Made by a program: the position numbers and the translations under genes. A stretch of DNA of 64,000 bases from Heterobasidion occidentale (lineage: Eukaryota > Basidiomycota > Agaricomycetes > Russulales > Bondarzewiaceae): the NCBI GenBank assembly GCA_039111635.1, contig JBCAQO010000014.1, positions 310,001 through 374,000 on the forward strand, given 5' to 3'. The notes beneath the pieces are model-generated. The model was not told where the DNA came from. It searched no databases and saw only the letters and a list, made by a program, of their open reading frames with translations. Positions within the stretch are counted from its first letter, which is position 1, and each line of letters starts with the position of its first letter. Shown here in pieces: positions 1 through 50,435 of this stretch.

Positions 1-1486
1 CGCCGTTTACCCTTGATTCAAGCTTGATCGACTAGATGGAAGCCCACTCCTGTTCCTGACGAGGATGCTTTCGAAGCAATCAAAGCTGGCCTAGATAGTT
101 TGCCCTCGGGCGCGAAAATGTTGATTAACAGCGGTCAGTGTATTCATCATGCTTTTGAACGATTTTCCTGATCATCAGTCAATGCAGGTGAATTTTACGG
201 TGTGAAGCCTGTCACTGCCAATCTAGAGCTCGTGTCCAGATTCTTTGAGAAGTACCCTACCTATGCCGACAAAGCTTTTCTCTCGGTGAAGGTACACTGT
301 GCCTAGAGCAGGCCAATGATTGAAAGCTTATTCTTTGCACTCAGGGTGGAACAAAGGCCAATTCCCTCGTTCCTGACAGTTCGTAAGTGGGTGCTGATTT
401 CATCTGTTCGTTTCCTGAGAATACTCTCAGCCCGGTGAACCTGAAGCGCAGTGTCGACACCATTCTCGAGAAACTCCGTGGAAAGAAGAAACTCGACTTG
501 TTCGAGACTGCTCGCATTGACCATAACCACCCTGTCGAGGAGACAGTGAAGGTTCTTTCTGGCTTCGTCTCGGAAGGAAAGTTCGACTACATCGGTTTAT
601 CAGAATGTCATGCCAATACTGTCAAACGGGCTAGTTCGGTAATAAATCCTTCTCCATTTTTTTAGGCTGAGAATAATACAAGATTGTTGATTATATGCGC
701 TCCTTAATGCCAGGTTGCCCCGATCGCTGCTGTCGAAATTGAGGTCAGCCCTTGGTCATACACCCAAGAGACGAAGGATGGTGTGGTCTCTCATTTATGA
801 CCATGTCTGTTCACTGATCGCATCGAACCCCAGTTATAGCGACCTGCAAAGAATTGGATATTGCTGTTGTTGGATACTCGTCCGTTGCTATTCAATCTTG
901 AATATCCATGCATCTCTGATACCTCTCGCAGTCCCCTCGGAAGAGGCTTTCTGACCGGTCAGATTAAGAAGCCGGAAGATTTCGAAGGTTGGAGATCCCG
1001 TTTGCGTTCTCCAATTTCCTTGCTTATGATATTTTTGGGCAGAGGGTGACTTCCGACGCACCCTATCTCGCTTCAAGGAGGAGGTATAGTATTTGAGCCA
1101 AGTTCACTCTGCTATGTTCTCAAGGAGTACTCTGATCAGAACCTCAAGCACAACTTCGCCATCGTAGATGCCTTGAAAGCCGTTGCTGACAAGAAAGGAG
1201 TCACGGCCGCCCAGCTCTCCATCGCTTGGGTCAGCTCACTCGGCGCGCATGTCATACCCCTTCCGGGATCATCGTACGTGCATGCCTGTGCTCGTTCTCC
1301 AATTTGAGACTTATACATGCCGCGTTCAGGAATAAGAAGCGCACACTCGAGAACTTGGCTGGAGGGGATATAGAGCTCTCTCTTGAGGAGCTGGCTGAGA
1401 TTGACAAGGTGTTCGAGACGCACACCGTGAAGGGGAGCAGGTTTATTGACGAAATTCCGGACGAGAAGCTTCATCTTTGGGGATGA
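1..1486 (+). CDS. Aldo/keto reductase, pyridoxal reductase-like (5' partial)
   Basis: This is the 3' part of an intron-rich gene whose start lies left of the window. Conceptual exons read [17 protein letters not shown], then [58 protein letters not shown] and finally [20 protein letters not shown], ending at the TGA at 1484-1486. The TIM-barrel order, the IGLSE turn, the [11 protein letters not shown] strand and the C-terminal cofactor segment IPLPGSS followed by RTLENL are typical of NADPH-dependent aldo/keto reductases close to fission yeast pyridoxal reductase and YakC. Such enzymes reduce aldehydes in the cytosol. The catalytic Tyr should lie upstream or in an early exon and was not located. 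The exact substrate is unknown. The family call is firm; the pyridoxal specificity is only a best guess. Confidence 0.85.
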
Positions 1487-1799
1487 TCGATGGGCTCTCG
1501 AATCATGACTAAATAGACAGAAGAAAGCAGTATTGTACACTAGCAGTTGAATTATTCAAGCTTTCAATATTCAATATTCAATGATCGTGGAGCCTTCACG
1601 AAAGATTGGTCGCAAGGCGAAGTCAGGAGGCATGTTATTTCGTGCAAGGCTTCCCCTCGTCTATGGCACTCGCATAGCCACAACCTGAACACAAAGATGA
1701 AGATTCTATGAAGGCATCATGTGAGTTGCGAGGCAAACCTGTTGCCGCCAGAGATCCATCCAATTATAATCCAAGCCCAAAATCGTTCCCAACAATTAT
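1487..1799. other. Intergenic, convergent 3' ends
   Basis: This stretch lies between the stop of the aldo/keto reductase and the stop of the opposite-strand USO1 homolog. It holds AT-rich sequence around 1545-1585, consistent with 3' ends. No gene is seen. Confidence 0.6.
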
Positions 1800-5250: not shown

Positions 5251-6818
5251 CCAATATGCGACTGCTGGCAAGAGATATCGCAGGGACAGAGGCAAGCAGA
5301 TGAGATGAACTGGTACGTCAGGCTACGCGACTCGAGGACGACGGGGATGTATGTTGGTCACGTGTCCCAAATATCTCCAACTCGCAGTGCTCATCAGTAC
5401 TCACTCAGTGCTCCTCTGGCAGTTCGTGCAGTCTTTCAAGAGTTTTCCGCTTTCTGGCCATCAGTGATCTTCAATTAATGTGTGTATGTCTTCAGTCAAA
5501 TTCTTATCTGCTGATATATGTACTTAAGCGAAGCACAGTCTAGCACAGTGCTTATTCGAACTATCGAAGTTTCAAGTTTGAACACTAGAAGTGGAATCAT
5601 GCCAGGGAAACAAAATCACTTGTGTTGAACATGAGAATCACCCAGGATGACTTTGTCTGCGAGAAATAGATGGTACGTCAGGAGAGCTATGACAGGGAGT
5701 GAGTGCTGAACAGTAATATAAGCAAGCGCGGCTCAAGTTAAGTTGCACACCTATCAATCAGGCTGTATAATGGACAAAATTGTTTCAATTCGAAGTTTGT
5801 CTCTGATGCATCTCACCTTTCTGTCGTCCGGGTATGCACAGGCTGATCAGGAGGAACACATACACTGCTCTCCCGGATATACCGCCCACGTCTTTGATAT
5901 TCATGCTCCTCCCCGCCCCCTCACAGACGATGTTCGCAGCCAATAACATGATTTCTGCATGGGTCGACTACGACCCCTACACGACGGCCGATTTCAGGCT
6001 CAATCTCTGTCGAAGACTGCAGTAGTGCGCCATGTCTCCTTGCAGTTGAGTGCTCTTCATGTATATGTCGCTGAACAATCAGACACAATCATAATGAAAA
6101 ACATGAGCTCGAATGCGAGCTAGTTTAGCCACTTGCCAGCGATAGTGTGAGGAGTGCTTGAATGCGCGAAAACCCTCCGCGTCATACATCATGACGCTCG
6201 ACGCTCCGCATGTAAGGCCATCTGGCAGCATCTGGCGCCTTCTGGGCCTCGAGCTCCAACTCAAAAATCCTCTCAAAATAGCCCCAAATTCAATTCGTTC
6301 AACGACGCACATTACAGCATACCCGCGGACTCCGTAGCATCCATGCGGGTCGAACGAAAGCCGCTGGATCGCCTTCGTCTCTTCACTCGCGCTCGCGTGT
6401 CATGTCGTAGTTGCAACCTGATAGGCAAAAACATCGCATACCGTACAAATCAAATGTCGCGATTCAATATTCAACATTCACCTCGGACAAATCGACATTA
6501 GCTTCACCGATTATAGAATCCTGGCGGGCAAACAGGCCCGCTAAATCCGGAGCATCTGGATTTCAATCGTATCGTGCAGATCTCGGGTCTTCCGTGCTCT
6601 TCGCGGTGGATCGTCCGCCTGAGATCTTCTGCAATTCACAATCGAAGCGTGCGTCCTCGCCGTCGCGATGTACTCGCGATGTGCGCTCCTGTGGGCTGGC
6701 CAGAGCGGAAGCTAGTCGGACCTATCTCGAGGGGTCAGGCGCTCACGGCCTGGTGGCAACTCAACATCAACGCCAGCAGCAGCCTCTCCGTGCACGCGCA
6801 AACCCCTCACGAACGCCC
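5251..6818. other. Intergenic, no recognised gene
   Basis: About 1.6 kb lies between the divergently arranged USO1 homolog and the first UstYa-like gene. Several short open frames exist, but none has a recognisable motif or a convincing exon structure. An open frame runs into the UstYa gene from about 6411 without a family match and is treated as 5' leader. Confidence 0.5.
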
Positions 6819-7556
6819 ATGAAGTCCGAATCTGCCTCGCCGTCCTCGCCTGCTCGTCGCGCCCCGTCGCGCACGCTGCTCGTCGGGCTCGGGCTCTCTC
6901 TCCTCGTCAACATCGCGGCCATCCTCTACCAGATCCACATCATCACACCAAACAAGCCCTCGTACAGTACGTCGCCGCAGCGCATTGTCCAATGCGCCCC
7001 TCACTCATGTGCCCCCGTGCGCGCGTGCTCCATAGCGTATCTCGGCGACGACCATCCGCGCGAGCTCCCGCTCAAGCTGCGCAGCGTGAACATGGCGTTC
7101 CACAACGACGAGGAGCACTATGCCATGGCGGGCGACCGCGCGTGGGCGGAGTGGAACGCTCTGCGCCCGCCCAACGGCGGCGACGTCTACCTGGGCGAGA
7201 GCCCGCTCCCATTCGGCGTCTCCGTGTGGCACCAGATTCAATGCCTGAACCAGATCCGTCAGATCCTTTTGGACGGGGAGGATGGGACGCCGTACACCGA
7301 GCACTGCTTCCACTATCTGCGTCAGTCGCTGATATGCCGCGGCGACCTGACGCTCGAGGAGGGCGGGTCGAGCATGGTGAACCCGAACGGGGAGGGTACA
7401 GTCGCCCCGACGGTGAACAAGTTGCATACGTGCAGGGACTGGCGACAGGTGTATGACTGGACGGTCGATCAGCAGAAGAGGTGGACTCCGGAGATGGTCA
7501 ATCTGCAGGAGGAGTTGGTGGAGGGCACGTTCCTCGCTATGGGCGAGGGTCTGTAG
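6819..7556 (+). CDS. UstYa-like (DUF3328) oxidase-family protein A
   Basis: UstYa-family proteins are membrane-anchored oxidases first defined in ustiloxin-type RiPP pathways, where they catalyse oxidative cyclisation. Two exons (6819-6966 and 7036-7556, intron 69 nt, which leaves the frame open) give about 222 residues. The start was chosen at 6819 because the N-terminal cytosolic stretch is followed directly by one TM helix (LLVGLGLSLLVNIAAILY). After the intron comes the family's YLGDDHP-ELPLKL strand, then SVWHQIQCLNQIR, EHCFHYLRQSLIC and the C-terminal HTCRDWRQV. In the first metal-type motif the usual HxxHC reads HQIQC, so one histidine is replaced by glutamine. It converges on a second family member at 9072-9763. 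Family membership is firm; activity is uncertain because of the His-to-Gln change. Confidence 0.88.
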   Translation: MKSESASPSSPARRAPSRTLLVGLGLSLLVNIAAILYQIHIITPNKPSYSTSPQRIVQCAPHSCAPVRACSIAYLGDDHPRELPLKLRSVNMAFHNDEEHYAMAGDRAWAEWNALRPPNGGDVYLGESPLPFGVSVWHQIQCLNQIRQILLDGEDGTPYTEHCFHYLRQSLICRGDLTLEEGGSSMVNPNGEGTVAPTVNKLHTCRDWRQVYDWTVDQQKRWTPEMVNLQEELVEGTFLAMGEGL

Positions 7557-9071
7557 CGGCCGGGTGCCAAGTATTACACGAAATCACTATGATTGTTCTT
7601 GCTCAGCGTCAGAGACACCAACTGCATTGAAGGGAGGGACGCTGTCGTACTGCCGTAACTCTGCAGCATCAACGTTCAACGCCCAGACATGACCTGAAGA
7701 TGTTCGACCTTCACGCGCCTAAAACCGCCCCCAATGACGCGAATCCTCACGACCCCCTCCTCGCGCGGGAAATGCAAATATGCTGCAGCGGGTATGAAAT
7801 CGCACCTCGCTAGCCCGCCCACTCCACCTCACTCCAATTTCAGCTCGGGCTCACTACTCGCGATAGCAGCACACTATATGTCGTCTGCGATCCGCGCCTC
7901 GGACGCGTTTCACGCGTATGCCGTCCTATGCAGTTGCCCCCAAACATTACATATCCACGCAGGACGCCGCCCAAGCCTGAACATGGACCGCTGATCATGG
8001 TTGGATTCGAGGCCGGGAGATTCGTTTTGCCTGGGACGACGGAGGACGTATTTTGTGAAGTCGTGGGGAGCGCAAGCAGCCCAACTCCGCTTTGTCGCCT
8101 GTGACCGCCTACCGAACAGAAAGATGGAACCAGTCAAGTCAAATTTTCACCTCAAGGCGGGGACAGTGTGTAATCGGACACAGTGCTATGACCTATGAGC
8201 GTGATCCGCACCCAAGTGACGAATTGTTTTCCAGGCTGGAACAGCCTCTGCTTGATCGTAGCCTATGAACGCTCAATGTCCTACGAAACCCATGCGGAGC
8301 ATCGAGCTCGACTCCAGCAGGCCGTTGGAATGCAGAAGGCCAAATACGTATTGGGATTGCGAATACCATCTCGCGAATACCATCTCGCGTCCTCTCGCGT
8401 CTTCCTGCAGCTTCTGCTTTGTGAGATAGACAAAATTGAGAAGGCGCACGCTTCTGGTCCCTGGGCGCACAGCTGATAGAGAAAGACAAATGATGTGTTC
8501 GAAGGCGCGATGGCGATCATGAACGTGCGCGCGGGCGCGGGGCGGAGGGCGGTGATGTCCAGGATTCCATGATAACTGATGTCCGCGCCATGCCGTGAAC
8601 GTCGGTTCGCCGCGATTCCGTGAGGAAGTCTTGGATGACGGACGAGCAGTGCAACTCGCTCAGCGCTTACCAAGTGCATCGACAGGCGTCGGCCGGTCAC
8701 GGGACATGGCATCGGAGTTCCACTGGCCGGGCGGTAGCGGTCCGGCGCCAGGCTTGTTTTCGTCTTGCTCAACGTCGTCGCGCGCCTCCACAAACGCGTA
8801 CGCGGTGGGATGCACCAGTTAGCACCATGCGCGCCGTCCGAGTTGTTCAATCAAGACAATATTCGACTTTTGTGCTATAGCCAGTGAACTACCGCTGCCA
8901 GAATCTGCACGAGCATGCGGGATTATTGAGGTGGGAGAGCAAACACTCTACCACTCGCATGCCAACCAGCTATCGGGGCGGGCCATTCGTCGGTCTGTCT
9001 CAGAACGCCTGCGTTGGATAGACACATCCTGACATTCGAAGCATCAACTTGGACTACGACTCGTTACAGCG
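7557..9071. other. Intergenic between convergent UstYa-like genes
   Basis: About 1.5 kb without a recognisable gene. A perfect 14-bp tandem duplication (gcgaataccatctc twice) lies at 8359-8386. Short open frames on both strands have no family signature. Confidence 0.5.
8359..8386. repeat. 14-bp perfect tandem duplication
   Basis: Two adjacent copies of gcgaataccatctc are followed by a partial third (gcg). The function, if any, is unknown; it lies between two UstYa-like genes. Confidence 0.8.
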
Positions 9072-9763
9072 CTACTCGTCTCCCTTCGTCGTCTTGTTCA
9101 TCACCGGCGACGACTCCGCCAACCGCGCTTCCATCTCCGGTGTCCAAGTACTGTGCCTCACCTCCGTCCAGCTCTCCACCTGCTTCCAATCGCGGCATGT
9201 GTGCGTGACGCCCTCGCCCGGAATAATGCCCTTGCCTCCCTGCGTCCGCGGCTCGAGCGTCGTGTCCGCCGCACACAGGATGTGCTGCCTGATGTAGTGG
9301 AAGCAGTGCTCAGTGTGGTCCGAGCCGTCGTCCCCGACCACGATGATGGTGCGGATGTGGTTCAGGCAGTGGAGCTCGTGCCACATGGAGACGCTGAGGG
9401 GGAGGTACACCTGTCCGAGGTAGACGTAGCCGCCCGCGGGGGGGCGGATGGCATTCCACTCGGCCCAGGCTTGCACGCCGGAGAACGCAAAATGCTCGGG
9501 GTCGTCGCGGAAGGCCATGTTGACGGTGCGGAGGGATCCGATAGGGAGCTCGCGTGGGTGGTCGTGACCGAGGTACGCTGAGGAAAGGTACGTGAGCTTG
9601 AACGAACGGGGAGGTTATCTCTGTGTCACTCACTGTAGGATTTCATCGGATACAGGGCATGGAGCTGGTAGAGGACGGCGACGATGTTAACCAGGAGGGA
9701 GAGACCGAAGACGGCCGCGAGCGGCGAGGGCGCGGTGAGCGTGGACAGCGCGCGGAACATCAT
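9072..9763 (-). CDS. UstYa-like (DUF3328) oxidase-family protein B
   Basis: Two exons (9763-9634 and 9577-9072, intron 56 nt) encode about 210 residues. The start at 9763 gives MMFRALSTL followed by one TM helix (VFGLSLLVNIVAVLYQL). The splice restores YTYLGHDHPRELPI, the conserved strand after the anchor. Both family motifs are intact: MWHELHCLNHIR (HxxHC) and EHCFHYIRQHILC, with HTCRDWKQV near the C-terminus. This copy keeps all residues expected for an active UstYa-type oxidase, unlike the neighbour at 6819-7556. It is divergent from the gene at 10150 across 386 bp, which suggests shared control. In known pathways such proteins act on secreted precursor peptides in the secretory route; here the substrate is unproven, and the repeat precursor at 19.9 kb is a candidate. 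Confidence 0.9.
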
Positions 9764-10149
9764 GGGTGATTATGGTCGTCTCGAGAGAGGCCCTGCGATG
9801 TGCGTACGGACTTGGGGGCCGCCTGGCATTGTATGTCTGCCGCCCTTCCGTGGGCGTCACGCGTATCTCGCCGAACAGTCGGGCCCCCGATCTCAAATCC
9901 ACGGTCGGGGCGTGAAACGCTAAAGGGGATTGCCAACTGTTTGCCAGGGCTTGCCCCATTTGCATTTGTCCGATCCGTACTGGGCGCGCAGATGCGCACT
10001 TGCTCCGCAATTGCAATCCACCCACCATCTGTCGCGTCGCGACTGCTCGATTTCCAAGAAATCCAACGGCCGCCGTGTCCTCCATGCCTTGAATTTCTCC
10101 TGGTCTTCCCGACAGACTGAAGTGCCCCGCTCGCCCCCTCCACCCTACC
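9764..10149. promoter_or_regulatory. Bidirectional promoter region
   Basis: A 386-bp interval separates the start codons of the UstYa-like gene on the minus strand and the single-TM protein gene on the plus strand. No TATA box or defined operator was recognised. The divergent arrangement is seen directly; shared regulation is inferred. Confidence 0.45.
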
Positions 10150-11160
10150 ATGTTCTCCTTCTTCCGCACCCTCAACGTCCCCCGTGCAGAGTACGTCTCC
10201 CTCGCGCGCGCCGGCGAGGGCGACTCGGCGAGGACGACGCGCTCCTCTCGACCCCGCGCTCCTCGTCCCCCGGGATCCACAAGCGCTTCCCCACCTACCA
10301 TGTCCCCGGCCTCGGCCTCAAGTCGTACATCCTCATCGGCCTCCTCGCGTCCCTCCTCATGCTCAACGTCTCCCTCCTCCCCTTCACGCTCTCCCGCGCC
10401 GCCGTGTCCGAGGCCGCGCTCCGCCGCCTCCCGTACCCCGACCAGCGCCTCGGCCTCGAGCGCGCCGCCAAGGGCATGCCCCGCCCCAAGGCGTACACGT
10501 ACCAGTGGCCAGACAAGATCGCGCGCCTCAGCCAGAAGCTCAAGCACTCCGTGTACGGCGCAGGCTCCCAGGTCATGATCACCGTCGAGGTACGCCCCGC
10601 GCACCTTCCACAGCACGCCCTCGCGCTAACCGTCGTCGCCGCAGGACACGACGCTCATGCGCTTCCCCGTCCCCGAGGCGGGGTCCGACAGGTGCGCCAT
10701 CACGTGGACCCCGCCGCCCCCGCTCGGCGTGCGCAAGCAGGACCTCACGACCAAGGGCGACGTCTCCGAGATCGAAGTCTGGTCCGTGATCGCGCCGCAC
10801 GGCACCGCGCCCAGCGCGGGCATGGCCTCGGTCGATGACATGGACTGGGACGCGCTCTCCTGGGCGACGCGCCCCGTGCGCGGCGAGCTGCTCGGCACGC
10901 TCGACCTCGCCGCGCGGCCGAACGCGACGACGGTCGAGTTCGCGTGCCCGATGCCCGCGATGCACGGCCATGGCGCCGGCGGGGGCCCTGCGAGCTTGAC
11001 GGTCGAGATGCGGTGCCTTCGCGTCGCGTGTTTCGTCGAGTTTATGCAGGTGCCGTTCTTCCCGAAGATGGGTGAGCGTTTTGTTGTTCTGTTTTCGGGT
11101 GTGCGAGGCGCGTTGCTGATTGGGCGTGTGGCAGGCTTCGAGCTCGTGCGGAGGCAGTGA
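10150..11160 (+). CDS. Single-TM secretory-type protein, basidiomycete family
   Basis: The protein starts MFSFFRTLNVPRAEYVSL. It has a TM helix near residues 60-80 (YILIGLLASLLMLNVSLLPF) and a luminal domain with MITVE, DTTLMRFPVPEAGSDRCAI, DVSEIEVWSVIAP, LSWATRPVRGELLGTLDL and a C-terminal CFVEFMQVPFF then GFELVRRQ. The pattern of a short cytosolic arm, one anchor and a Cys-containing beta-rich domain resembles a large basidiomycete family sometimes annotated as But2-C-terminal-like; that link is tentative. Introns lie at about 10590-10643 and 11070-11133. Between about 10221 and 10228 the reading frame must shift by one base to join the N-terminal segment to the TM segment, so a base appears to be missing. 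It sits back to back with a UstYa-like gene, a pairing that may recur at 53-54.5 kb. Function unknown. Confidence 0.65.
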
Positions 11161-11351
11161 TGGGCTCGGTGGAAGGGCTAGTATATACAGAGGATGAACT
11201 TATGTCGATGAATGGAATGAGTCGTGATTGACCGTGCCTGCGTGAAGTGGTTCGCAAGAGACTCCAGCCTGAGGTATCCCTCACATACGATTGTTAACTC
11301 CAGAGGGATCCCACTCGTTATTCAATACATCTGCTACGAATTAAGCGCCTC

Positions 11352-12332
11352 TCACACGTGCACGAACTCTGCGCACCACACGTCCATCGCCTCCACCTTT
11401 TTCGGCCCCCCCACCACGTCCGCCGCCGCCCTCACGGCCTCCCGCAGTGCAACCACCACCGCGCGCTCCCCCTCGTCCTTCACGAACGCCTCGATCCCCT
11501 TCTCAAACTCCCCATCCAGCACCGCCTGCACCTCCCACTGCCCATCCAGCGTGCCCTCCGCAGGGCGGAACCGGCCCTCCGTCACCACCTTCCACGCGCC
11601 GCCCCCGGGCGCGGCCGCCGCGCGCACGATACTCGCGGGCGCGAACGCGGTGCGCACGTTCGACTCGGACGCGGGGTTGCGGTGCTCGAGCGCGGCCTGC
11701 GCGAGCGCCGCGAGGACGTGCGCGTGCGCGGCGGGGCGCGCGGCGCTCAAACTCCACTCGGCGACACAGAGGCGCGTCGCGTGCGGCGCGAGCGCGGCGA
11801 GGAGCGCGGAGAGCACGCGCGGGGACGCGAAGTACCACGTGCAGAGGGAGAGGATGGCGAGGTCGAAGGGCGGCGCGTCGGGCGCGCGGGCGGCGAGGAA
11901 GGCGAGCGGGTCGGCTTGGGCCCAGGTGATGCGGGGGCCGAGGCGGCCTGCGGAGAGGTGCGATTGGGCCTGGCCGAGCGTGAACGGGGAGCCTGCGGCG
12001 AGCGAGCGGCGATCAGATATCGGCGACGGGCGATCGCGTGCGATCGACGACGCGGGACGCACCGTAGTCGAGGGCGCCGGGGTCGACGCCCGTGACGTGG
12101 CCGGTCTCGCCGACGAGCTCTGCGAGCACGGCGGAGGTGTCGCCCTGGCCGCAGCCGATCTCGAGGACGCGGGCGCCGGCGGGGATGGCCCAGTGGGCGA
12201 GGATGGCGGCGCGGTGGGCGGTGGACTGGAGCTGGACCTTGAAGTACTTGGGCTCGTGGAGGCAGAGGCCGGCGACGGCGTCGGGGGAGAAGGGCGCGGG
12301 GAGGGTCGGGGGTCGGGGGCGACGGCGGACAT
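11352..12332 (-). CDS. SAM-dependent methyltransferase (class I)
   Basis: The core carries the glycine-rich SAM motif GARVLEIGCGQGDTSAVL and an acidic cofactor loop GHVTGVDPGALDYGSPFT, followed by RITWAQADPLAFLA and DLAILSLCTWYF (motifs I, II and IV of class I methyltransferases). The C-terminus ends MDVWCAEFVHV with the stop at 11352. The ATG at 12332 begins MSAVAPDPR, but a one-base shift within the first 30 bases is needed to enter the frame LPAPFSPDAVAGLCLHEPK. The distance is too short for an intron, so a lost base is the likely explanation. An intron lies at about 12002-12060. The substrate is unknown. It lies between the single-TM protein gene and the tyrosinase, on the same strand as the tyrosinase. 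Confidence 0.8.
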   Translation of the reverse strand: MSAVAPDPRPSPRPSPPTPSPASASTSPSTSRSSSSPPPTAPPSSPTGPSPPAPASSRSAAARATPPPCSQSSSARPATSRASTPAPSTTVRPASSIARDRPSPISDRRSLAAGSPFTLGQAQSHLSAGRLGPRITWAQADPLAFLAARAPDAPPFDLAILSLCTWYFASPRVLSALLAALAPHATRLCVAEWSLSAARPAAHAHVLAALAQAALEHRNPASESNVRTAFAPASIVRAAAAPGGGAWKVVTEGRFRPAEGTLDGQWEVQAVLDGEFEKGIEAFVKDEGERAVVVALREAVRAAADVVGGPKKVEAMDVWCAEFVHV

Positions 12333-13070
12333 GGTGATGTGCAGGGCTGATGCGCTGATGAACGATCGATGGCTCAGGCTCAGACTATGGCGGCAAGTGG
12401 AGCGGTCACGAGGCCGTCGGGGCGCGCGGTCGGCCCATCGCATCCGGCATCAGCACCGCACGCGCGCCTGTGCGCCCTCGCCGCCCTCGCGTGCTTACCA
12501 CATCGCCCGCCCACGGCGCAGCCGCTCGCGCCTCCAGCCACACGCAGGCGACGGAGCTATCGGCAGCCATATCCGCTATCTGCCCTCTGCGCCCGGGACC
12601 CCGGCGCTCCCTCATTTCGATAGGCCTGATGAGATCGCCAGGAGCGACCCCGATCCGATCCCGTCCGATCCGCGGGTCACCGCCTGTTTCCCCGCACGCC
12701 CTTGGTCGCAGAGAAAGCTTACTTACCTCGCGCGATAAGCGAACTGAAATGGCCTCGATTCGATTCGCTTCGTGGCGTCGTTTCGGCTTCGACTTCGACG
12801 CCGCCTCGCTCCTGACTTGGCTTCGACTTCTCGCTCCTGGCCCTCGCGCGCGCCAATCAGTAACAACCCTGATCATAGCCGACGCTAAGCAGCCCGTAAG
12901 TACCTCAGTCCGAGCGGCGCCTCGAGCGCGCAACGCATGGTGATAGCAGTAAGTACACTGTAAGTAGCCCCGATGCTTCCCCGCCTCGCGTCGGCGGTGC
13001 TGAGATAAACACTCCAATCCACCCGCGCGCGCGCCTCGCCCCGACCGGCCCCAGCCAGACCTACCCAGAC
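12333..13070. other. Intergenic, GC-rich
   Basis: This 738-bp stretch lies between the methyltransferase start and the tyrosinase stop. Long open frames on the opposite strand are composition artefacts of high GC. No gene or motif was recognised. Confidence 0.5.
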
Positions 13071-15026
13071 CTACTTGGACCTGAGCACCTCCGCGGGCGC
13101 CGGATACGCGTACGGCGGATACTCGTAGCAGAACGGCCGCGCGGTGTGGTCGAACGTCTGCACCCCGCGATGACGTGACGGCGCGACGGCGCGACCAGGT
13201 CAGACGCCGCGATGCCAAAAGCACCGAAACCAAAACCGAAACCAAATCAGACAAAAAAACCCAAAAACAAATCAGCGATCGGCGTGATATCCAAAGGGGA
13301 CGGAAATCAAAGAGAATGAAACGCGAGAGGAAAACGTCATGTCAAATCCGGAGGAATTTGACGAGGAGCAGGGGGCAGGTCGGGGCTCCGCTCTCGATCC
13401 CATCAACAACCCCGCCCCGCCCCACCCCGCTGCCCCGCCCCGCTAAACACCGCCTCGACAAATCGGCCGCGCGACGACGACCCAAAGACCCACCCAAAGA
13501 CCAAAACAGAAAACAAAATAAAATAAAATAAACACCGCGCGCACGCACCTCGGACACCGGCACGCCGACCGACAGCCGGTCGAACTCGAGCACGTGCTGC
13601 GCGCTCGCGGCGGCGTCGTACCGCGGGTCGGACGCGTTGTGCGTGTGCAGCGGGACGCCGGAGAAGGCGCGCGTGTTGGCGGGGTGCTCGGCTTGCCACT
13701 GTGCGATATGCGGGGGTGAGTCTGCCGAAGCGAAGGGGGAAGGGAAGAGGAGAGGAGAGGAGAGGGGGACGCACGGTTGACCAGAGGCGGTCGAGCTGCG
13801 TGTGGTGGAGCCCTGCAAAGAGGCCGTCAGAGCGCGCACGTACATCCAGAGAGACGCGCACGCACAGAAAACCGGATCTGCAGAACCAAAGAGAAAAGCG
13901 CGTGAGCCCTCCGCACACACGAAGCGGCGCGACGCGACGCACCGTTCGACGAGTACGAGCCCGTGCACTGCGGCTCGGGCACGACGGCGGGACACTCCGC
14001 GTCCATGTCCCCGCCGACGAACTCGTGCACGCGGTTATGCGCCTGCGTCATGCGGTACTGGAACCGGAAGAAGTCGCCCGGCGCGGTCCCGCGCAGCGCC
14101 GCCGCGACGCGCGCGGGCGTGAGCGTCGTGTTGATCGGCATCTCCAGCGCACGCCTCTCCAGCGCACGTGGGGAGGGCGTCGGGTCGTTCTCGGCCTCGG
14201 GGAAGAGCGAGAGGTTGCGCCGGAGGCCGTGCGGGACGGGGTAGGACAGCGCGAAGCCGGACGCGGGCGCCGCGAGCGCGCCGTCGCGCACGAGGCAGTC
14301 GGTCGTCACGTCTGTGCAGTCGCCGGTGGTGCCGAGCCCGCGGGTCGGGTGCGCGGAGAAGACGGGGGAGGCGGCGAGCGCGGCGACGTCGAGGGTCCAG
14401 TCCCAGTAGCTGGTGTGTGCGCGCGCGCGCGAGTAAGTTTGGGTGGGAAGAGGGGGGGAGGGGGGGACGTACGGCGTGGGCCCGGTGTAGCCGCATTTCT
14501 CGCGGAGGGAGGTGTCGAAGAGGTGGACGAGCCTGGAGGAGGACGATGAGCGGATCGCGGCGACTGCGATCGATGCAGCCGGACTCACCAGCGGTCTGCG
14601 CGGGCGCGCACGCGGATCAGCATACAAAGACAGTACGAGATCGGCAGGAGGACTCACGCCAAGGCAGAAAGTAGGCGTTCTGGTGGGCCGAGTGGTCGAG
14701 CGCGTTGTGGGTGAAGGCAAAGTCGTCGTAGAGGGAGTGGGCGCCGGGGAGGCGCTCGCCCTGGGCGGTGAAGGAGAGGCGCTGGTGGCGGATCGACGCG
14801 AGGCACTGGAGCGAGTGTGGATGAGGACGTTGGTGAGTATGTCAGGATGTCAGGGCAGGGAACGGACCTTGACGCCTGCGAGCCAGGCCTCCTGGTGCTC
14901 GGGAGCGAGGGTGCGCCATTCCTGGCGCAGGGCGAGCTTGCGGCACTTTGGGGCTGCAGACGCAGCGGCGGAGACGTGGGCGATGGCGACGAGGACAATA
15001 GCGAGGAGGAAGGCGGGGGTGGGCAT
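13071..15026 (-). CDS. Tyrosinase-family copper oxidase, secreted type
   Basis: Tyrosinases oxidise phenols such as tyrosine to o-diphenols and quinones with a type-3 copper pair. The start at 15026 gives a signal peptide (MPTPAFLLAIVLVAIAHVSA). The CuA site is built across exons: FTHNALDHSAHQNAYFLPW, a 7-nt microexon (14589-14595), then LVHLFD, giving PWHRWLVHLFD. It continues with YWDWTLD, then CuB with HNRVHEFVGGDM and, after an intron, GLHHTQLDRLW. The C-terminus (PFCYEYPPYAYP, stop at 13071) is short, so this is a short tyrosinase of about 380 residues without a long inhibitory tail. Introns around the microexon are 62 nt (14596-14657) and 56 nt (14533-14588); the last intron (13158-13548) is unusually long, 391 nt. 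It shares a 180-bp divergent promoter with the gene at 15207. A tyrosinase also belongs to the ustiloxin pathway; a link here is inferred. Confidence 0.9.
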
Positions 15027-15206
15027 GGTGGAGGGACGGGGGAGGAGTAGCATAGCAGGTGGGCCAGGGAATGATGGGGCAATAAAACGGGGCCGGGTGG
15101 TCGGAGAGCGCTGGTGAGACGGAGCCGTGCCTCCGTCAGCCCCGGGACGCATAAGTATCGAGGCCCAGCGCGGGCGGCTAGTAAGCAGCTAAGCAGCAGC
15201 ACGACC
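15027..15206. promoter_or_regulatory. Divergent promoter, tyrosinase / N2227 methyltransferase
   Basis: Only 180 bp separate the two start codons. The geometry is seen directly; co-expression is inferred. A CATAAGTATCG segment near 15150 may be a weak TATA-like element for the plus-strand gene. Confidence 0.45.
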
Positions 15207-16703
15207 ATGCCCCGCCTCACCCGCGTCCTCGCCTGGGCCCTCGCCCTCACCGCCTGCGCCTCCCTCTGGACCCTCGCCCGCCGCCTCTCCGACTCCCCGC
15301 TCACCCTCGCCATCACCCTCCCCGACGGCGTGCACGTCCACGTCGACGGCGCCCGCGCGCCCAGTGCCCACGCACAGCACCCGTACGACCCGGCCCCCCA
15401 GGGCCACCCCCCCTCCGCCGCGGCGCCGCTCCCGCCCCTGCGCGAACCCTACCAGTCGATCCTGACGACGATCACGGCGCTCGAGCACTACGGAGAGTAC
15501 ACGACGGGCGTCCTCGCGCGGAAGCAGGCGCGGTTCGAGCGCCTGCCGGCGGCGCATGCACCGTTCGCGGCGGCGATCGACTACGCGGGGCAATTCACGC
15601 GCGCGGACGCGCTGGTGCCGGCGAACGCGGCGGTGCTGAGCGCGATCGCGGGCACGGCGCGGGCGGCGTACGGGTTCGAGGCGGACGAGGTGACGGTGCG
15701 GGTGCGGAACGAGATCGTGGGGGACTTGATGGGCCACTTGGTGAGGGACTGGAGCGCGGAGGGCAGGGACGAGCGCGAGCGCGTGATCCGGCCTATCGTG
15801 GACGCCCTCCGCCGCGCCCTTCCGAAGGGCAGCCAGGACGAGTTCCGCATCCTCGTCCCCGGCGCAGGTCTCGGCCGCCTCGCACACGAGATCGCACTCG
15901 AGCCAGGTTCGTCCCTCGCTCCCTCCCCGCTCTTCTCTTGCTCTCTCTCTCAACTCATTCGCTCACTCACTCAGACTTCCACGTCGATGCATCCGAGCTC
16001 GACTACGGCTCCGTCCTCGCCTACCGCTTCCTCGCCAACACGACACACACACCCGCCCCGCTCTCCCACACATTCCACCCTTCCTCACAGACTGGTCCTT
16101 CCAGTCCACCGCCGCCGGCCGCTTCCTCCCCGTCCGCTTCCCCGACGCCCTCCCGAACCCCACCCCCGCCGACCCCCCGCGCGTCCGCATGATCGACGGC
16201 GACTTCCTCGAGCTCGCAAAGGCCGTCCAGCGCGACCGCGACCGCGGCGAGGACACGCGCTACGACGCCGTCGCCACCCTCTTCTTCATCGACGTCGCGG
16301 AGAACGAGGTCGAGTTCCTCCAGGCCATCCACGCCGTCCTCAAGCCCGGCGGGCTCTGGGTCAACCTCGGCCGTGCGTCCCTCCCCCGCTCTCTTCTGCT
16401 TCGTCGCGTCTGACCTCACGCGCCCACGTCTGCTAGCGTTCAAGTGGGGCGCCCACTCCCAGCTCCAGCTCTCTGCGGAGGAGGTCCTCCACCTCGCAGA
16501 CATGGTCGGCTTCGCCGTCGACCCCGCCTCGCGCCGCTCCATCGACGCCGTGTACGCCCACCAGCCCGGCTCGCTCCTCAAGTTCACCTACGGTGCGTGC
16601 CCCCACATTCCTGTCCCCCCTTCGTGCGCGCTGACGCCGCGCGTGTCCGCTACCAGTCACCCAGTTCTGGACCGCCAGAAAGCGCGACCAAGATGAACGA
16701 TAA
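15207..16703 (+). CDS. N2227-type methyltransferase (carnosine N-methyltransferase family)
   Basis: The family uses SAM to methylate an imidazole nitrogen in His-containing peptides such as carnosine. The start at 15207 gives an N-terminal hydrophobic segment (VLAWALALTACASLWTLA), suggesting a membrane anchor or signal. The body holds the family's long helical N-terminal region (YGEYTTGVLARKQARF), the SAM motif FRILVPGAGLGRLAHEIA, the hallmark FHVDASELDYGSVLAYRFL, MIDGDFLELA, and VAENEVEFLQAIHAVLKPGG. Introns are at about 15907-15974, 16371-16437 and 16593-16656; the stop is the TAA at 16701-16703. Around 16076-16082 a run of C/T needs one extra base to keep the frame into TDWSFQSTAAGRFLP, so a base is probably missing. 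The peptide or small-molecule substrate is unknown. The divergent neighbour is the tyrosinase. Confidence 0.85.
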
Positions 16704-17612
16704 GAAACGTCGCGAGGCGGCGCGCCGCGGGACTTGCGACGCCCAACGTGCCATGGCGCGCATGTCTGACGAGAGTAGACACGAACGACGCCTCGAACGC
16801 ATCGCGAGAATACCATACATACATGCCTGCGGCGCGCGTACCTACATAGCACAGCGCCTAACGAAATCAATCCATCATCTCCTGCATCCTGCATTTGAAG
16901 CGCACGCGGACTGTCAACAGCGGCTGGGAGCCCGTGCACGATGCCGCGGGTCTGCACCTATGAATATGGGAGCTGCGGCTATTGATCTGAGGCAAGCAGC
17001 GAACTCGGCGTCGAGAGACTCGCGCAGAGCCGTGGGCGTGAGCGCTTGATCCTGAGCCGGCTATAGTGCAGGCCGGAGACGACGACGTCCAAACGCGACA
17101 CATGCATCGTCATTTTTTTGTTGACCGAGCATGGCTTTTAGTGCGAGCATCGCCTGGCGCTCTGCACCTAGCAAGACCTGGCACCTTCGTTCTCGAACGC
17201 GAATACCGTCGGAACTGATACACCGCGACGACACGCGAACAGCGAGCCCTCATGTTCTGGCCTCGACTCACACCAAGGCCGATCCCGAGTCCCGCATCGA
17301 CGTCTATGGCTCCTTGCCACTCGACTTCTGAGTCCACACGCAGCCTGCCTCCTGGCCGGATCTCTGTTCTTTCGCCGAGCTCTGCCTCCCGTCGTCGTCG
17401 TGCCACTCAGCGTATGCATGGAGGACCACCATCTTTATTCTAAAACACAAACGGCGTCGAAGGTACACCGCAAGCGACGACATTCGAACATCCTTCGCAA
17501 ACTCTGGCCTCGACGCACTGTCCCACGACCGCTCCCCTGTCCCGTATCGACGTAGCTACTACGCGGTATTACACGCTTGATACTCGTACTGCGGACTCGC
17601 GCAGAGCGCCGG
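16704..17612. other. Intergenic, no recognised gene
   Basis: About 0.9 kb lies between the convergent ends of the N2227 methyltransferase and the small secreted protein gene. Only short open frames without motifs are present. Confidence 0.5.
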
Positions 17613-18380
17613 CTACAGGTACTCCTCCGGCATCGGGACCAGGGTCTCGTTGTTCCGCGCACACATCGCGGGGTAGTCCTGCGCGAGATCGACGACGTCG
17701 ACGAGCATCACGTCCGAGCACTACAATCCACAATCAGCCTCTCCCCGCCCGCGTTCCAAAAGCACCGAAAAGGCGACGGGAGAATCGCACGCACGTGGAA
17801 CGCCGTCGCGTTTGTTGTGGGGTCGCGCGCCGAGAACAGGAACACGCCGTACTCGGGCGCGGTGCCGGACTGCGCGGCGGGCACCGTCGGCGCGGGCATC
17901 TGCACGTCGAAGCAGAGCTGCCCCGAGGGCGCGATCGGCACGTCCGTCGCGATCGCGTACGGGAAGTCCTCGCGCTTGCGCGGGACGCGCGCGCGCGTGT
18001 AGTGCACGCTCACTATTAGGATCGAGGAGCGAAAACCGGGGGTCAGCGCGCGCGACCAGACAGACAGACAGGCGGGGGGCGTGCGCACCGAGGTCGCCTG
18101 CGTTGCCGGAGAAGGACAGGAAGGTGCGCTTGTAGCCCGAGAACGGCTGCGGGTTGTGCACCCAGTCGCCGCAGAAGGGGTACAGCGGCGCGAGCCCGGT
18201 GCGGCTGGGCGTGGGCCGCGCGCGCGTCGCCCAGGGGAAGTGCACGCTGAAGGACGCGCGCGCGCGTTGCGTGCTGGGGTCGGGGCTGGGCGCGCCGTGC
18301 GCGTGGCCGTGGCTGGTGGCGCGGCCGACGAGGGTGAAGGGCGACGCGAGCAGGAGCAGGGTGAGGGCGAGGGCGTGCAT
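17613..18380 (-). CDS. Small secreted protein of unknown function
   Basis: Three exons joined by two introns (about 17728-17793 and 18014-18089) encode roughly 205 residues. The start at 18380 gives a signal peptide (MHALALTLLLLASPFTLVG). The mature part begins with His-rich HGHAHG and contains FCGDWVHNPQPFSGYKRT, LSFSGNAGDLVSVHYTRA, GQLCFDVQMPAP, EYGVFLFSARD and FHVCSDVMLVDVV, ending in EEYL. Four or more cysteines and short beta-strand-like segments suggest a compact extracellular fold. The His-rich mature N-terminus could bind metal, but I do not recognise a named family; similarity to copper-binding BIM1-type proteins was considered and not supported. It lies between the methyltransferase and the repeat precursor. 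Confidence 0.7.
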
Positions 18381-19803
18381 GGCTCAGGTGGGATGGGGTG
18401 GTGTGGTACGGGTGGGGCAGTCAGCGACTCTGAGGAGGGAAGGTTGACCTGGAGAGCTTGAGAGGCTGAGGGCGACTGGGGCGGTGCGTGCGGGTGACGA
18501 TGTTAACCTTGGTGATCGCGTCGTATGACACCCACTCGTTTGTTAGAGTCCGCCGCAAGACACACGACGCTGGAGTCGGGAGCAGCCTGATCGGGAAAGG
18601 GACGCCTGTGTTCAGCGAGGTGAGTTGCGAAGACTTGCGTGGGTTTTTTTTCATCTTGTCTTATTTTCGTTTTTTTCAAAGAACCCGCAAGACGAACGCA
18701 GAGGTGATTGTTTCAGAGAACAACAAATTCTTACATACCTCGCCGCCCTCTTCGAGCATGTCCGGCGTGGACGCAACAATGGGTTGGCCCCTAGATTGCG
18801 TTTGCCTTGTGAAATTCGACGATCGAGCCAATGGGTCTTGTCGCTCGTCGCGCAAACACGACTCGACACGACTGCTTTGATGTGTCCAGATCCTTCTCTC
18901 GCTGGACTGTTCCCACCAGGATCCGCATTGGTATTGCCGACGCCTCGACAGAGTCGAAGATGCTGGGTCGAAATCGACTTAGTACACGACCGACGACACA
19001 GCGATGAAGACAAATCTCCTGCAGTCCCCTGCACCGCTGACGAGTTTAGGTGTGGATTTGGATATGTTTTATGAAATATCACGGACTTAGTGAGTCTAAG
19101 AGACTAAATAATAACGTATAGAGCCCTGACCTATAACATACGCTTTTTCGCCTCAGATCCGATGCGGATATGCTCAATTGTCGTGATACTGAGCCCGCCG
19201 TGCTTCGAGGAAATCACCATCCTCGTCGGGCGAACAAGTCAACATTGGCTCCGTCGGATCTGCATATCGGGGTGATCGGCGGTCACCACGCGGGATGTTG
19301 GCACATGCACGGCGTCCCTTTCTTGTGTTTCTCTCTGCGGTGAGCACGGATACGTGAGTGAGATGAGTGGCGGCGGCTCACAATTTGATCCTACGGAGGT
19401 CCGAACACCATGGACTGCATATTTAATTTCAGGACGGCGGGCACGCATGATGAAATGTTCTCAGCGAGGCTCCGCACGCTTGACGACCGACCCGCTCCGC
19501 CAGGTCGAAGGTGGACAAATAGGATGCAATGCATGGCCGATCTACCGCGCCCGCATTCCGCGTGGCCCGTACGGTTGGCGCAGGAATTTCAACCTCTCCT
19601 CCCCGCTCCCCAAAGTCCGTGAGATCTCACCGAGAGATGCAATGGGCCAGCCACCATTGGATTCGCTGGGGCTCCCGAGAGGTCGTCGGCACGTTGAAAC
19701 GTGAAGTCACAATGTGCGCATCACGTGAAGCTGGCCCGCTGGGACTTGCAAGTTGCGACTGACTTGCGCGACTCGGGAGACGGTGGAGGTGATGCGACGC
19801 GGG
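18381..19803. other. Intergenic upstream of the repeat precursor
   Basis: About 1.4 kb without a recognisable gene lies between the divergent small secreted protein gene and the repeat precursor. It is less GC-rich than the flanks and is the probable regulatory region of the precursor gene. No defined transcription-factor site could be named. Confidence 0.5.
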
Positions 19804-19810
19804 TATATAA
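19804..19810 (+). promoter_or_regulatory. TATA box of the repeat-precursor gene
   Basis: A TATATAA element sits about 125 bp upstream of the start codon at 19935, with gggtatataagg context. It is the clearest TATA box seen in the window and suggests a strongly or conditionally expressed gene. Confidence 0.65.
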
Positions 19811-19934
19811 GGAGTGCAGACGAGGCTGAGAGAAAGCATCGTCTCACTCCGAACGACTTCCTTGACCTCTCAACTCGAGCCTCATCCTCCAGTTCTTCCC
19901 TCGTCTTTTCGATATCCATCCTCGTCTATTCACA

Positions 19935-21234
19935 ATGCAGTTCCGCACCTTCGTCATCCTCTCTGCCTTCTTCATGGTTGCGCACTCCCGAGGTAAGCTT
20001 CATGCCGCTCCTAGCGCTCAGACAGTGTGCTGACCAGATCGCTTGTTGTCGGCGCCTTCGACGGTCATTGCTCTCTCGCTACTAGTCATCGGTAAGCCAT
20101 AGTCCTCGTCGCCGTACAGAGGAGAGATACTCAACGCTTTCTGTAGCTCGTGGATACGACGACGCCGCCTACCTGTCCAAGCGCGTCCCGCACCAGTACG
20201 GCATCAACAACGAGGAGGAGCTCGCCAAGCGCGTCCCGCACCAGTACGGCATTAACAACGAGGAGGAGCTCTCGAAGCGCGTCCCTCACCAGTACGGGAT
20301 CAACAACGAGGAGGAGCTCGCCAAGCGCGTCCCTCACCAGTACGGCATCAACAACGAGGAGGAGTTGGCCAAGCGCGTCCCCACCAGTACGGGATCAACA
20401 ACGAGGAGGAGCTCGCCAAGCGCGTCCCCCACCAGTACGGGATCAACAACGAGGAGGAGTTGGCCAAGCGCGTTCCCCACCAGTACGGTATAACAACGAG
20501 GAGGAGCTCGCCAAGCGCGTCCCCACCAGTACGGGATCAACAACGAGGAGGAGTTGTCGAAGCGCGTCCCTCACCAGTACGGCATCAACAACGAGGAGGA
20601 GCTAGCCAAGCGCGTCCCCCACCAGTATGGTATCAACAACGAGGAGGAGTTGTCGAAGCGCGTCCCCCACCAGTACGGTATCAACAACGAGGAGGAGTTG
20701 GCCAAGCGCGTCCCTCACCAGTACGGTATCAACAACGAGGAGGAGTTGGCCAAGCGCGTTCCCCACCAGTACGGTATTAACAACGAGGAGGAGCTCGCCA
20801 AGCGCGTCCCCCACCAGTACGGGATCAACAACGAGGAGGAGTTGTCGAAGCGCGTCCCTCACCAGTACGGGATCAACAACGAGGAGGAGCTTTCCAAGCG
20901 CGTTCCCCACCAGTACGGTATCAACAACGAGGAGGAGCTCGCCAAGCGCGTCCCTCACCAGTACGGGATCAACAACGAGGAGGAGCTCGCCAAGCGCGTC
21001 CCCCACCAGTACGGGATCAACAACGAGGAGGAGTTGTCGAAGCGCGTCCCTCACCAGTACGGGATCAACAACGAGGAGGAGCTCTCGAAGCGCGTTCCCC
21101 ACCAGTACGGGATCAACAACGAGGAGGAGCTTTCCAAGCGCGTTCCCCACCAGTACGGTATTAACAACGAGGAGGAGTTGGCCAAGCGCGTCCCTCACCA
21201 GTACGGGATCAACAACGAGGAGGAGCTCGCCTAA
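19935..21234 (+). CDS. Kex2-processed tandem-repeat peptide precursor (putative RiPP precursor)
   Basis: The start at 19935 gives a hydrophobic leader (FRTFVILSAFFMVAHS), then GYDDAAYLSKR and 22 tandem units of 48 bp, the first beginning at 20185 and the last at 21190. Each reads VPHQYGINNEEEL followed by AKR or SKR; the last ends in EEELA and a stop. Lys-Arg between units fits Kex2 cleavage in the Golgi, releasing many copies of one peptide. This layout matches KEX2-processed repeat proteins, including UstA-type dikaritin precursors; the core here has Tyr-Gly-Ile. Only the residue before KR varies (14 Ala, 8 Ser); other differences are silent. Introns are 19993-20037 and 20092-20146. Units 5, 7 and 8 each lack one base, so the frame is lost between about 20381 and 20523 (TAA at 20491-20493) and then restored. 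Whether this is an assembly error or a real lesion is open. Confidence 0.85.
20185..21231 (+). repeat. 48-bp tandem repeat array, 22 units
   Basis: Units start at 20185, 20233, 20281, 20329, 20377, 20424, 20472, 20519, 20566 and then every 48 bp to 21190. Three units are 47 bp. Nucleotide differences are mostly third-position and concentrate in the Leu-Ala/Ser codons before the Lys-Arg, while the peptide part is invariant outside the broken units. Confidence 0.95.
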
Positions 21235-22442: not shown

Positions 22443-24332
22443 ATGTCTCACAGATACCGCACAATCTCTTCGTTACCTCGCGAAATCCTGATAAAAGTCC
22501 TGTATTCTCTCGATGCTCATAGTCTCATCCGATGCAAACAAGCAAGCATTGTGACATCTTCTCCCTTCACCTTGCATCTTTGTGACCATCCTTCCAGGTG
22601 TGTCGCGATTGGCGTGTCCTCGTCACCGAGGTACCCGATATTCAGTACAAATTTGAACTGTAAATGAGCGGTTTGGACGAGCGTTTGCTTCCGAACACTG
22701 TCGACCCTTTGGATCGACCCCGATTCCTCAGGGAATACCAATATGCCTGGAAGACGCTGAAATGGATGATCCACAAATCTATACCCGGAGCCAACCCTGT
22801 TAACTGGGTTAGGCCTATCACCTTTCGCCACGGTGTTCTTGCATACTTGAGCAGATCCATGCCCACCATTCACCTCACGCGATTTCCCTCACCTCTTCTT
22901 GGTATCGGAGGCGCAGAGTGGGACGTTGATTTAGTATCCCCTGAACATTTGATTGGTTATCAAATTGATCCTTCTCAAGACTTGCTCGTTACGGTGTCTC
23001 TGAATACGTGGTGAGTACACCTATACTAAGCTGATAGTCTTCGTCAACGATATGTGATTCTCGCAACTTGTTAGTCCGGATGATGAGAGCCATTCGTCAT
23101 GTCGAGTATCTGTACTCTCGATGACCGGTGGCAACCATTCTTCAGGGACCTCCGAATTTAGCTGCATCGTGCCAAGGGTACACGATACCTATCCAAATCC
23201 GAATACAGGAGAACCTGGTGTCACAATCCACGTTCAAGGCAGTCTCGTCGCAATCCTTTTCGACGGACCTATCCTTCTAGACGGAGAACCTGCTAATCCT
23301 TACGTGTTCCGAAATCAGGTAATGATGGTATGGGATTGGAAGGCAGCGGAAATGAAAACGGTCAGTTGTGTGTCTGTTATTCTACGAATACTGGTCCTTA
23401 CATGTAAAAATCAGCAACTCCACTTAATGCCTCGTCCCGTCATATCAGGCTTTGGCTTCTTATTAGATGAATTCCTCTGTGTGCTAGTGAAACACTGTGG
23501 AGAAGGGGCTGCAGCGACACCGATTCTTCTCGTCTTTAAGCCTATATCAGCGACTCCGGCAAGATCTCTGGAGGGTTATGATCCTATTGTTGCCTCCTCG
23601 CTACCCGCTCCATTTGGGAGTTCAGTCTGGTAGTTGTTTCGCTGCAGGTTGATCCGGTCCCACAGTCTTCCACTGGTGGCTTAGCCATGGTCACCATCTG
23701 CCATCTGTGGGTCACCAAGTCGTGGCGGAGACGAAGACCTTGACTATGAAGTAATCTCGGTGGTCATATTCATCCTATATCTTTTCTTGTCAGGCGTTTC
23801 ACGGCGAACGTTGACAGGCACTGCGTAATACCATGGTCTATGTGAGGACCATTCAACACGCGCACGGTCCCCTTGAACGGATGGCATGATGACACAGACC
23901 CAGAAATTAGATTGTCGGGCTTGCGCGCTGCCGCTTATTCAGAATCTGATTCAGCCGTTTGCATTTACGATCTTGATCCCCTGCGAGTAGGACGCGCAAG
24001 GGATGACGAGGAAGCTACAGTTAGCGACTCGTCCCTCGTACCCTCAGACTTTTGGAACAAGGGCGAGCTCTTCACAGATCTTCCATGTATGGTAACAGAG
24101 GTCGAATTGCCTCAGACGGTCAGATGGTCGCTGAAGAAGCTTCCAATGATTTCAGAGCTTGGTCTGTTGTTGCCCGTGGACGGTGCAGTCAGTTTACAAA
24201 CCTCCCCATTGTTTGAATTGCGCTGATAGAAAACTTACCCGCGATCTGATCGTTAGGTTTCTTCAAATGGATTTGGATGGTTCGGGTTTTGATTTCCCAG
24301 CAGATCTCTATCGCCCATCAAAAGAGATGTGA
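22443..24332 (+). pseudogene. F-box protein gene, apparently broken
   Basis: The N-terminus (MSHRYRTISSLPREILIKVL, continuing YSLDAHSLIRCKQ) is an F-box, the Skp1-binding motif of SCF ubiquitin ligases. It is followed, after an intron with a GC donor, by VCRDWRVLVTEVPDIQYKFEL and then, in frame, a TAA at 22661-22663 exactly where a Tyr or similar codon is expected before MSGLDERLLPNT. Later exons keep a propeller-like body (VTIHVQGSLVAILFDGP, GFGFLLDEFLCVLVKH, LPQTVRWSLKKLP), and the last open piece ends near 24332 (DFPADLYRPSKEM). The 23630-23870 part needs several frame changes and contains stops. The family is clear (Agaricomycete F-box expansions); loss of function is likely but sequencing error cannot be excluded. 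Confidence 0.7.
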
Positions 24333-49750: not shown

Positions 49751-50435
49751 ATGTTCCCTACGTCTCAGCATTGGCTTCAGCTTGCGATTGTAGCACTTCT
49801 TACAGCCTTCACAATCTTGAACGTCTTCCGGTTCCTCTATCCAGCATCTTTGGAGTTTTTCCGCTCATACAGTGAGTAATAAGTTAAATTCAAATTTCTA
49901 TGGCCTGATCACGAATGTAGCATTTATTGGGGACGACTTCCCCAACGAATTGCCTCTTCGATTGGATCATATCATTATTGCCTTCAATGACACCATGGAC
50001 TTCAGACTTCACGATGTCCAGAAGTGGCAGACAATTTTTCCTGGAGGAGGAGGGTGGGTGAATCTCGGTCCACAGGGTCGACCGTTCTCCGTTTCCATGT
50101 TTCACCAACTTCACTGCCTTAACGGTATCCGCCATGCCATCTCCCAGTCTAGTGCCGCTGCGTGCAACAACACGACTGTGGACCCCAAGATTCTCGGCCA
50201 TACGAACCATTGTTTCAACTTTCTACGTCAGGCTCTTCTTTGCAAAGCTGACACCACCTTGGAGCCGACCACCATTGTTGACCTTCCGAAGGGAGCGCTC
50301 GGGCAGCTGCTTCAGGCAACGGAGTGCTTCACAGATGCGTGGATTACCCGTCTGTGTATCATTTCTTGGAAAGAAAACACGCTGAACACACTGCTTTGCG
50401 TGGCAACACAACGAGCTAGGTTGAATCTATGTTGA
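49751..50435 (+). CDS. UstYa-like (DUF3328) oxidase-family protein C, C-terminus frameshifted
   Basis: The start at 49751 gives a short cytosolic arm and a TM helix (LQLAIVALLTAFTILNVFRF). An intron (49872-49919, gtgagt to gtag) restores YTFIGDDFPNELPLRL. Both family motifs are intact: FHQLHCLNGIR and NHCFNFLRQALLCKADTTLE. Around 50285-50300 the frame is lost by one base; the expected C-terminal family block (HRC followed by an aromatic segment) is visible in the next frame at 50330-50360, with its own stop at 50417-50419. Read as given, the protein has an unrelated tail ending at 50435. An in-frame ATG at 49673 is an alternative start. The break is either a real truncation or one of the recurrent single-base losses in this window. 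Confidence 0.85.

Follow-up and report, generated by a model that had tools for sequence, protein, structure and literature searches.

A duplicated gene cluster for a putative Kex2-processed repeat peptide with UstYa-family proteins in Heterobasidion occidentale

The analysed window, a stretch of 64,000 nucleotides of the Heterobasidion occidentale genome (45.05 Mb, 159 contigs), corresponds to C14:310001-374000 and contains a putative gene cluster for a ribosomally synthesized and post-translationally modified peptide (RiPP). Coordinates without a contig name refer to the window. The block begins with two UstYa-family genes, UstYa-A (6819..7556, + strand; exons 6819-6966 and 7036-7556; PF11807, E=6.8e-17) and UstYa-B (9072..9763, - strand; exons 9763-9634 and 9577-9072; PF11807, E=4.8e-19), with an identical intron position in the splice models. 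They are followed by gene C (10150..11160, +), encoding a membrane protein recognized by eye from a hydrophobic stretch, and by a gene for an S-adenosylmethionine (SAM)-dependent methyltransferase with one intron (11352..12330, -), whose second copy, described below, matches PF13649 (E=3.3e-8); both genes have a 5' frame break in the assembly. A tyrosinase-domain gene with the approximate limits 13500..15026 (-; PF00264, E=1.3e-7) carries the copper-site-like strings HNRVHEF and HHTQLDRLW, read by eye, and precedes an N2227/CARME methyltransferase gene (15207..16695, +; PF07942, two exon pieces, E 4.1e-16 and 1.5e-16). A secreted-looking protein termed S (17613..18383, -; signal by eye) gives a weak BIM1-like match, and the block ends with a Kex2-repeat precursor gene (19935..21234, +; exon 1 19935-19992, intron 19993-20146, exon 2 20147-21234), the frame of which is interrupted in the assembly. 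The initial annotation had listed the UstYa pair, the two methyltransferases, the tyrosinase, the secreted protein and a precursor with 22 units. All of these were recovered by Pfam matches, splice models or by-eye signal, but the 22 units do not lie in one open frame and gene C, the eighth member of the block, was missing from the list.

The repeat array (20179..21234, +) is far above chance (Tandem Repeats Finder score 1639). At the DNA level it comprises 22 units of the form (K-R)VPHQYGINNEEEL(A/S), each beginning with K-R; 19 of them have the full length of 48 nt, and units 5, 7 and 8 are each one base short; the frame breaks off in unit 5 and is restored within unit 8, with a stop between. 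Comparison of the 19 full-length units gave a proportion of synonymous differences (pS) of 0.33 versus 0.025 for nonsynonymous ones (pN), a roughly thirteenfold synonymous excess, and the sole amino-acid change was Ala/Ser in the last position. The spliced leader, MQFRTFVILSAFFMVAHS, resembles a secretion signal when read by eye. The unit contains the Tyr-x-Ile pattern of ustiloxin-type cores and fits the YXIX cores of ustiloxin and phomopsin (PMC7329392). The pattern is compatible with a dikaritin core, a cross-link as such being beyond the reach of sequence.

Upstream on the same contig, a second copy of the block occupies C14:269.3-280.0k; a gap of about 37 kb separates it from the window block, and the two starts are 47 kb apart. 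UstYa-A, UstYa-B, gene C, the methyltransferase, S and the precursor recur there in the same order and orientation, together with an additional UstYa gene at 270.3-271.0k, giving three UstYa genes there versus two in the window copy. By blastn, the window positions 6805-7557, 9090-9798, 10135-12339 and 17613-18263 match copy 2 at 74-87% identity, and for the precursor region the value is 68-83%. The long piece of the methyltransferase has 93-95% identity to its copy-2 counterpart. The dN/dS ratio was 0.10-0.36 in all 11 coding pieces compared between the copies, which lie outside the UstYa first exons, the N-termini of S and gene C, and the repeat arrays. The copy-2 precursor (C14:279.3-280.0k) shares the leader and carries about ten units, in the forms VPH(R/S)YGI..EE..LD and (V/I)PH(R/S)YSLTDEEA(L/V)D. 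A RiPP-type cluster is well supported by the joint duplication of the set and by purifying selection on the compared pieces, and we regard it as highly probable that the block is a coherent, duplicated and selected unit of this kind. The joint duplication also led us to drop the idea that the UstYa genes have nothing to do with the precursor. The proposal of the initial annotation thus held for the precursor, the UstYa pair and the SAM methyltransferase, but its most ustiloxin-like parts are missing from the second copy: the window interval 12340-17612, with the tyrosinase and CARME genes, has no counterpart there, and tblastn of C14:260-310k with one query for each returned only a 17-residue chance match to CARME. 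The two genes are therefore not shown to be core and were no longer treated as such; they are likely passengers, either inserted in the window copy or lost from copy 2, and optional or unrelated. Outside the block, window positions 33-1499 and 22596-23257 have inverted relatives at C14:282-286k and 299.6-300.3k (65-74% identity), possibly old repeats near the duplicated blocks.

Inspection of the UstYa proteins showed an intact HxxHC...HxxHC motif in UstYa-B. In UstYa-A the two halves are replaced by HxxQC and YxxHC, one histidine being kept in each half. The same replacements occur in copy 2 and in Bondarzewia (P0052; g2629), which suggests that UstYa-A may be a conserved partner rather than a decayed gene, because the half-motif is kept in both copies and in Bondarzewia. 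HxxQC was found in 3 of the 83 relatives of UstYa-B, and two more of the 83 were not matched by the motif pattern. Genome-wide, 19 UstYa matches fall by our own count into nine groups. When the window and 15 loci of 10 kb each were scanned by script, Kex2-type repeat open reading frames (ORFs) appeared at four of the nine groups, namely the two C14 blocks, C7:572k and C7:720k; the other hits were out-of-frame shadows of these arrays and, within the window, a single chance pair. The two C7 sites are paralogous and represent a second precursor family adjoining UstYa genes (C7:572.4-572.8k and C7:720.2-720.9k), with the signal-like start MRV...AAAIPCK in both. A partial third set at C9:541-550k comprises the methyltransferase, a fragment of UstYa-B and gene C, and the 10 kb inspected there contain no repeat ORF; an ORF within this region (C9:540-550k) resembles a membrane transporter by eye. 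A second, unrelated-looking UstYa pair (PF11807) is present in the window at 49821-50432 (+) and 53888-54454 (-), with no repeat precursor nearby in the scan. At C7:2417-2424k, three UstYa matches enclose a distant relative of gene C (27% identity, E=3e-10), and no repeat ORF was found.

The BIM1-like domain is the sole Pfam match of protein S, aligned to positions 2-136 of the 140 of PF20238, with E=7.8e-4 (20.4 bits) for copy 2 and E=0.059-0.12 (13.3-14.3 bits) for copy 1. S weakly resembles the BIM1/X325 copper proteins over nearly the whole model, but differs from them in scoring below the family cut-off and in lacking a histidine at an obvious mature N-terminus (by eye). At E<=0.01 the genome contains S nowhere but in the two blocks. 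PF20238 has a single match in the genome, at C1:2768k, which could not be recognised by eye as a BIM1 gene and was set aside. Gene C has conserved cysteines and tryptophans, its relatives carry the UniRef name 'Ubiquitin 3 binding protein But2', and neither its pieces nor its relative P0084 gave a Pfam match. There is no detectable likeness between S and gene C; NCBIfam returned no match for S, gene C or UstYa-B, and PDB sequence searches with profiles of these three gave nothing useful. CctR, a DUF3328 protein, forms a dimer that is anchored in the membrane and has a lumenal domain, each monomer carrying two copper ions at HxxHC(x)nHxxHC. The protein requires Cu(I), and its authors postulated an accessory protein for copper/Cu(I) or electrons and cited ApnU and AprY as copper-dependent too (PMC12435403). 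BIM1 binds Cu(II), releases it readily and acts in copper uptake (PMC7529816). Because the UstYa-family enzymes studied so far need copper and S is weakly BIM1-like, S is a candidate copper supplier to the UstYa enzymes.

Relatives of the block are found in other fungi. At E<=0.001 there are 83 relatives of UstYa-B, the closest named ones in Heterobasidion irregulare (78% identity) and Bondarzewia mesenterica (65%), both genera belonging to the Bondarzewiaceae, Russulales; gene C has 65 among 7999 candidates scored. Fifteen named species appear in both lists, and in 12 of them the longest listed contig is of equal size, so that the UstYa-B and gene C relatives were taken as co-located (seven Basidiomycota and five Ascomycota, tallied by hand from two tables with unnamed matches excluded). 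Gene C and UstYa relatives carry neighbouring or nearby locus tags in Bondarzewia (gene C, g2628; UstYa, g2629 and g2632), Tetrapyrgos (009382/009381), Penicillium robsamsonii (003332/003329), P. expansum (008370/008373) and Plenodomus lingam (P077160/P077200), and in the Colletotrichum protein P0133 gene C continues, by eye, into the same methyltransferase. Two UstYa proteins, P0045 and P0047, are named as from the chytrid Blyttiomyces helicus and lie on short contigs (4274 and 9157 bases), where contamination is possible; the 2020 survey reported no UstYa outside Asco- and Basidiomycota. Precursor type #24 (G-5/P-1) of Umemura 2020 covers 19 genera of three phyla, including Heterobasidion, Bondarzewia and 17 others, and 16 of its 35 members have DUF3328 nearby. 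Its genera overlap with our UstYa-B and gene C lists in 12 of 19 cases, versus 2/20 for G-3, 6/19 for G-6, 4/18 for G-8 and 4/11 for the ustiloxin type G-10; these overlaps were counted by hand, and large genera such as Penicillium count in every type. On the strength of this genus overlap, G-5/P-1 is the putative precursor type of this cluster.

On this basis we propose, as the reading that we moderately favour, that the block is a Kex2-repeat RiPP cluster with UstYa-A, UstYa-B, gene C, the SAM methyltransferase, S and the precursor as its core. The precursor would enter the secretory pathway, where membrane-bound lumenal UstYa-B, with its full copper motif and possibly in a pair with UstYa-A, which has half the motif histidines, would oxidise the Tyr-x-Ile of each unit, most likely to a cyclic or hydroxylated peptide. 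Kex2 and Kex1 would release the units, the methyltransferase would tailor the product, and S, perhaps with gene C, would provide copper or electrons to the UstYa enzymes. Modification of the units by UstYa proteins is, in our judgement, likely, and a Tyr-Ile macrocycle specifically falls slightly short of an even chance. Of the modified cyclic peptide proposed in the initial annotation, the RiPP-type cluster and a Tyr-x-Ile pattern that fits a dikaritin core hold; cyclisation is inferred only. A broader version, in which the catalytic and half-site UstYa pair and gene C belong to an ancient RiPP pathway common to Ascomycota and Basidiomycota, perhaps also chytrids, here with S as a dedicated secretory protein for copper delivery, is speculative and appears doubtful.

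Several observations weigh against the proposed mechanism. The evidence consists of gene content and sequence comparison, and the chemistry, the processing and the partner roles are all inferred from it. At five of the nine UstYa groups the stretch scanned contained no repeat ORF (C14:360-364k, that is, window 50-54 kb; C7:2417-2424k; C2; C11; C10), and the units of the C7 precursors, such as DDEDLEKTLSF-RR and GEEADLKTLMDF-RRR, are without Tyr. Searching with the 246-aa repeat ORF returned no precursor relative at E<=0.001 among 7993 candidates scored, a search that a diverged unit would escape. S remains below the PF20238 cut-off of 27 bits in both copies and was not returned by a genome-wide PF20238 search; of six decoys, a single one gave any match (DUF1547, E=0.19) and BIM1 was hit by none, but the copy-1 score of S is near that best decoy. 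Finally, units 1-4 and units 9-22 are open and no single open frame spans all 22, the copy-2 precursor shows a broken frame and a stop late in its sequence, and gene C and the methyltransferase of the window show, by eye, 5' frame breaks relative to copy 2.

The initial annotation regarded the block as a dikaritin (ustiloxin-type) pathway with the tyrosinase and both methyltransferases as integral parts. The location of the tyrosinase inside the block agrees with this, as do the dikaritin cluster features of Ding et al. 2015, which include a tyrosinase and a methyltransferase (PMC12048977), and the clustering of tyrosinase genes near precursors with DUF3328 neighbours (PMC7329392). The second copy, however, is without tyrosinase and CARME counterparts, and we consider this version improbable. 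The dikaritins ustiloxin, phomopsin and asperipin-2a share with the block a leader with Kex2-spaced repeats, a Tyr-x-Ile unit, two UstYa genes and a methyltransferase; of the dikaritin features, both copies have a precursor made up of a leader and a repeated core (its frame being interrupted in the assembly), multiple UstYa genes and a methyltransferase. The differences are the basidiomycete host, a tyrosinase that is not in both copies, the extra gene C and S, and the unit itself, which is without the acidic residues that stand just before Tyr in the dikaritin EDYXI core (PMC6339444). Asperipin-2a clusters are also without some dikaritin genes (PMC12048977). Ten pieces of the block genes yielded neither a transporter nor a peptidase, and the same holds for 20 scanned of the 130 ORFs of at least 130 aa outside the block, which included one alpha/beta-hydrolase at 55216-56004. 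The cluster would work like a dikaritin cluster, yet it is not filed as one, because the tyrosinase does not belong to the conserved set and the ORFs scanned lack a transporter or peptidase.

The frame breaks raise the alternative that the window copy is decaying and yields nothing, so that only the second copy, or neither, is functional. Breaks in the window precursor, gene C and the methyltransferase, together with the broken copy-2 precursor, speak for it. Against it stand the low dN/dS ratios and the units on both sides of the break, which are nearly without amino-acid change. Moreover, an environmental gene C protein that shares 97.5% identity with the window copy across 121 residues is unbroken at the position of the window break, and most of the breaks are single missing bases, as in sequencing or assembly error. 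Because the units on both sides of the break are constrained and the environmental gene C is intact, assembly error or recent damage is favoured by these two results as the probable cause of the precursor break, and decay seems distinctly unlikely. The proposal that the precursor gives linear secreted peptides for signalling or defence while the UstYa genes act elsewhere has a precedent in the linear or minimally modified repeat-precursor peptides found by peptidomics of four Agaricomycetes, among them Coprinopsis, Lentinula and Pleurotus (PMC9769878), but it conflicts with the joint duplication and retention of the precursor and the UstYa pair and with the repeat ORFs at four of nine UstYa groups, and we hold it to be equally unlikely.

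The proposed Kex2-repeat RiPP cluster bears on how such systems are distributed and supplied with copper. Pairs of Kex2-repeat precursors and DUF3328 genes in basidiomycetes were catalogued in 2020; the gene content and duplication of this block are not described in the consulted sections of that survey, and no product of such precursor/UstYa clusters was found in the literature. Such pairs are counted as rare in Basidiomycota (103 of 1680 repeat precursors with DUF3328 neighbours), where cyclisation has been suggested to hardly occur (PMC7329392), yet in this one genome four of nine UstYa groups carry repeat ORFs, and two of the four belong to a duplicated and selected block. Comparison of the two copies distinguishes genes that are likely core from likely passengers. 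For the Cu(I) or electron helper postulated for the UstYa family (PMC12435403), S and gene C are concrete candidates, which makes the question testable, and copper delivery by S, if true, would answer how the lumenal UstYa copper enzymes are supplied.

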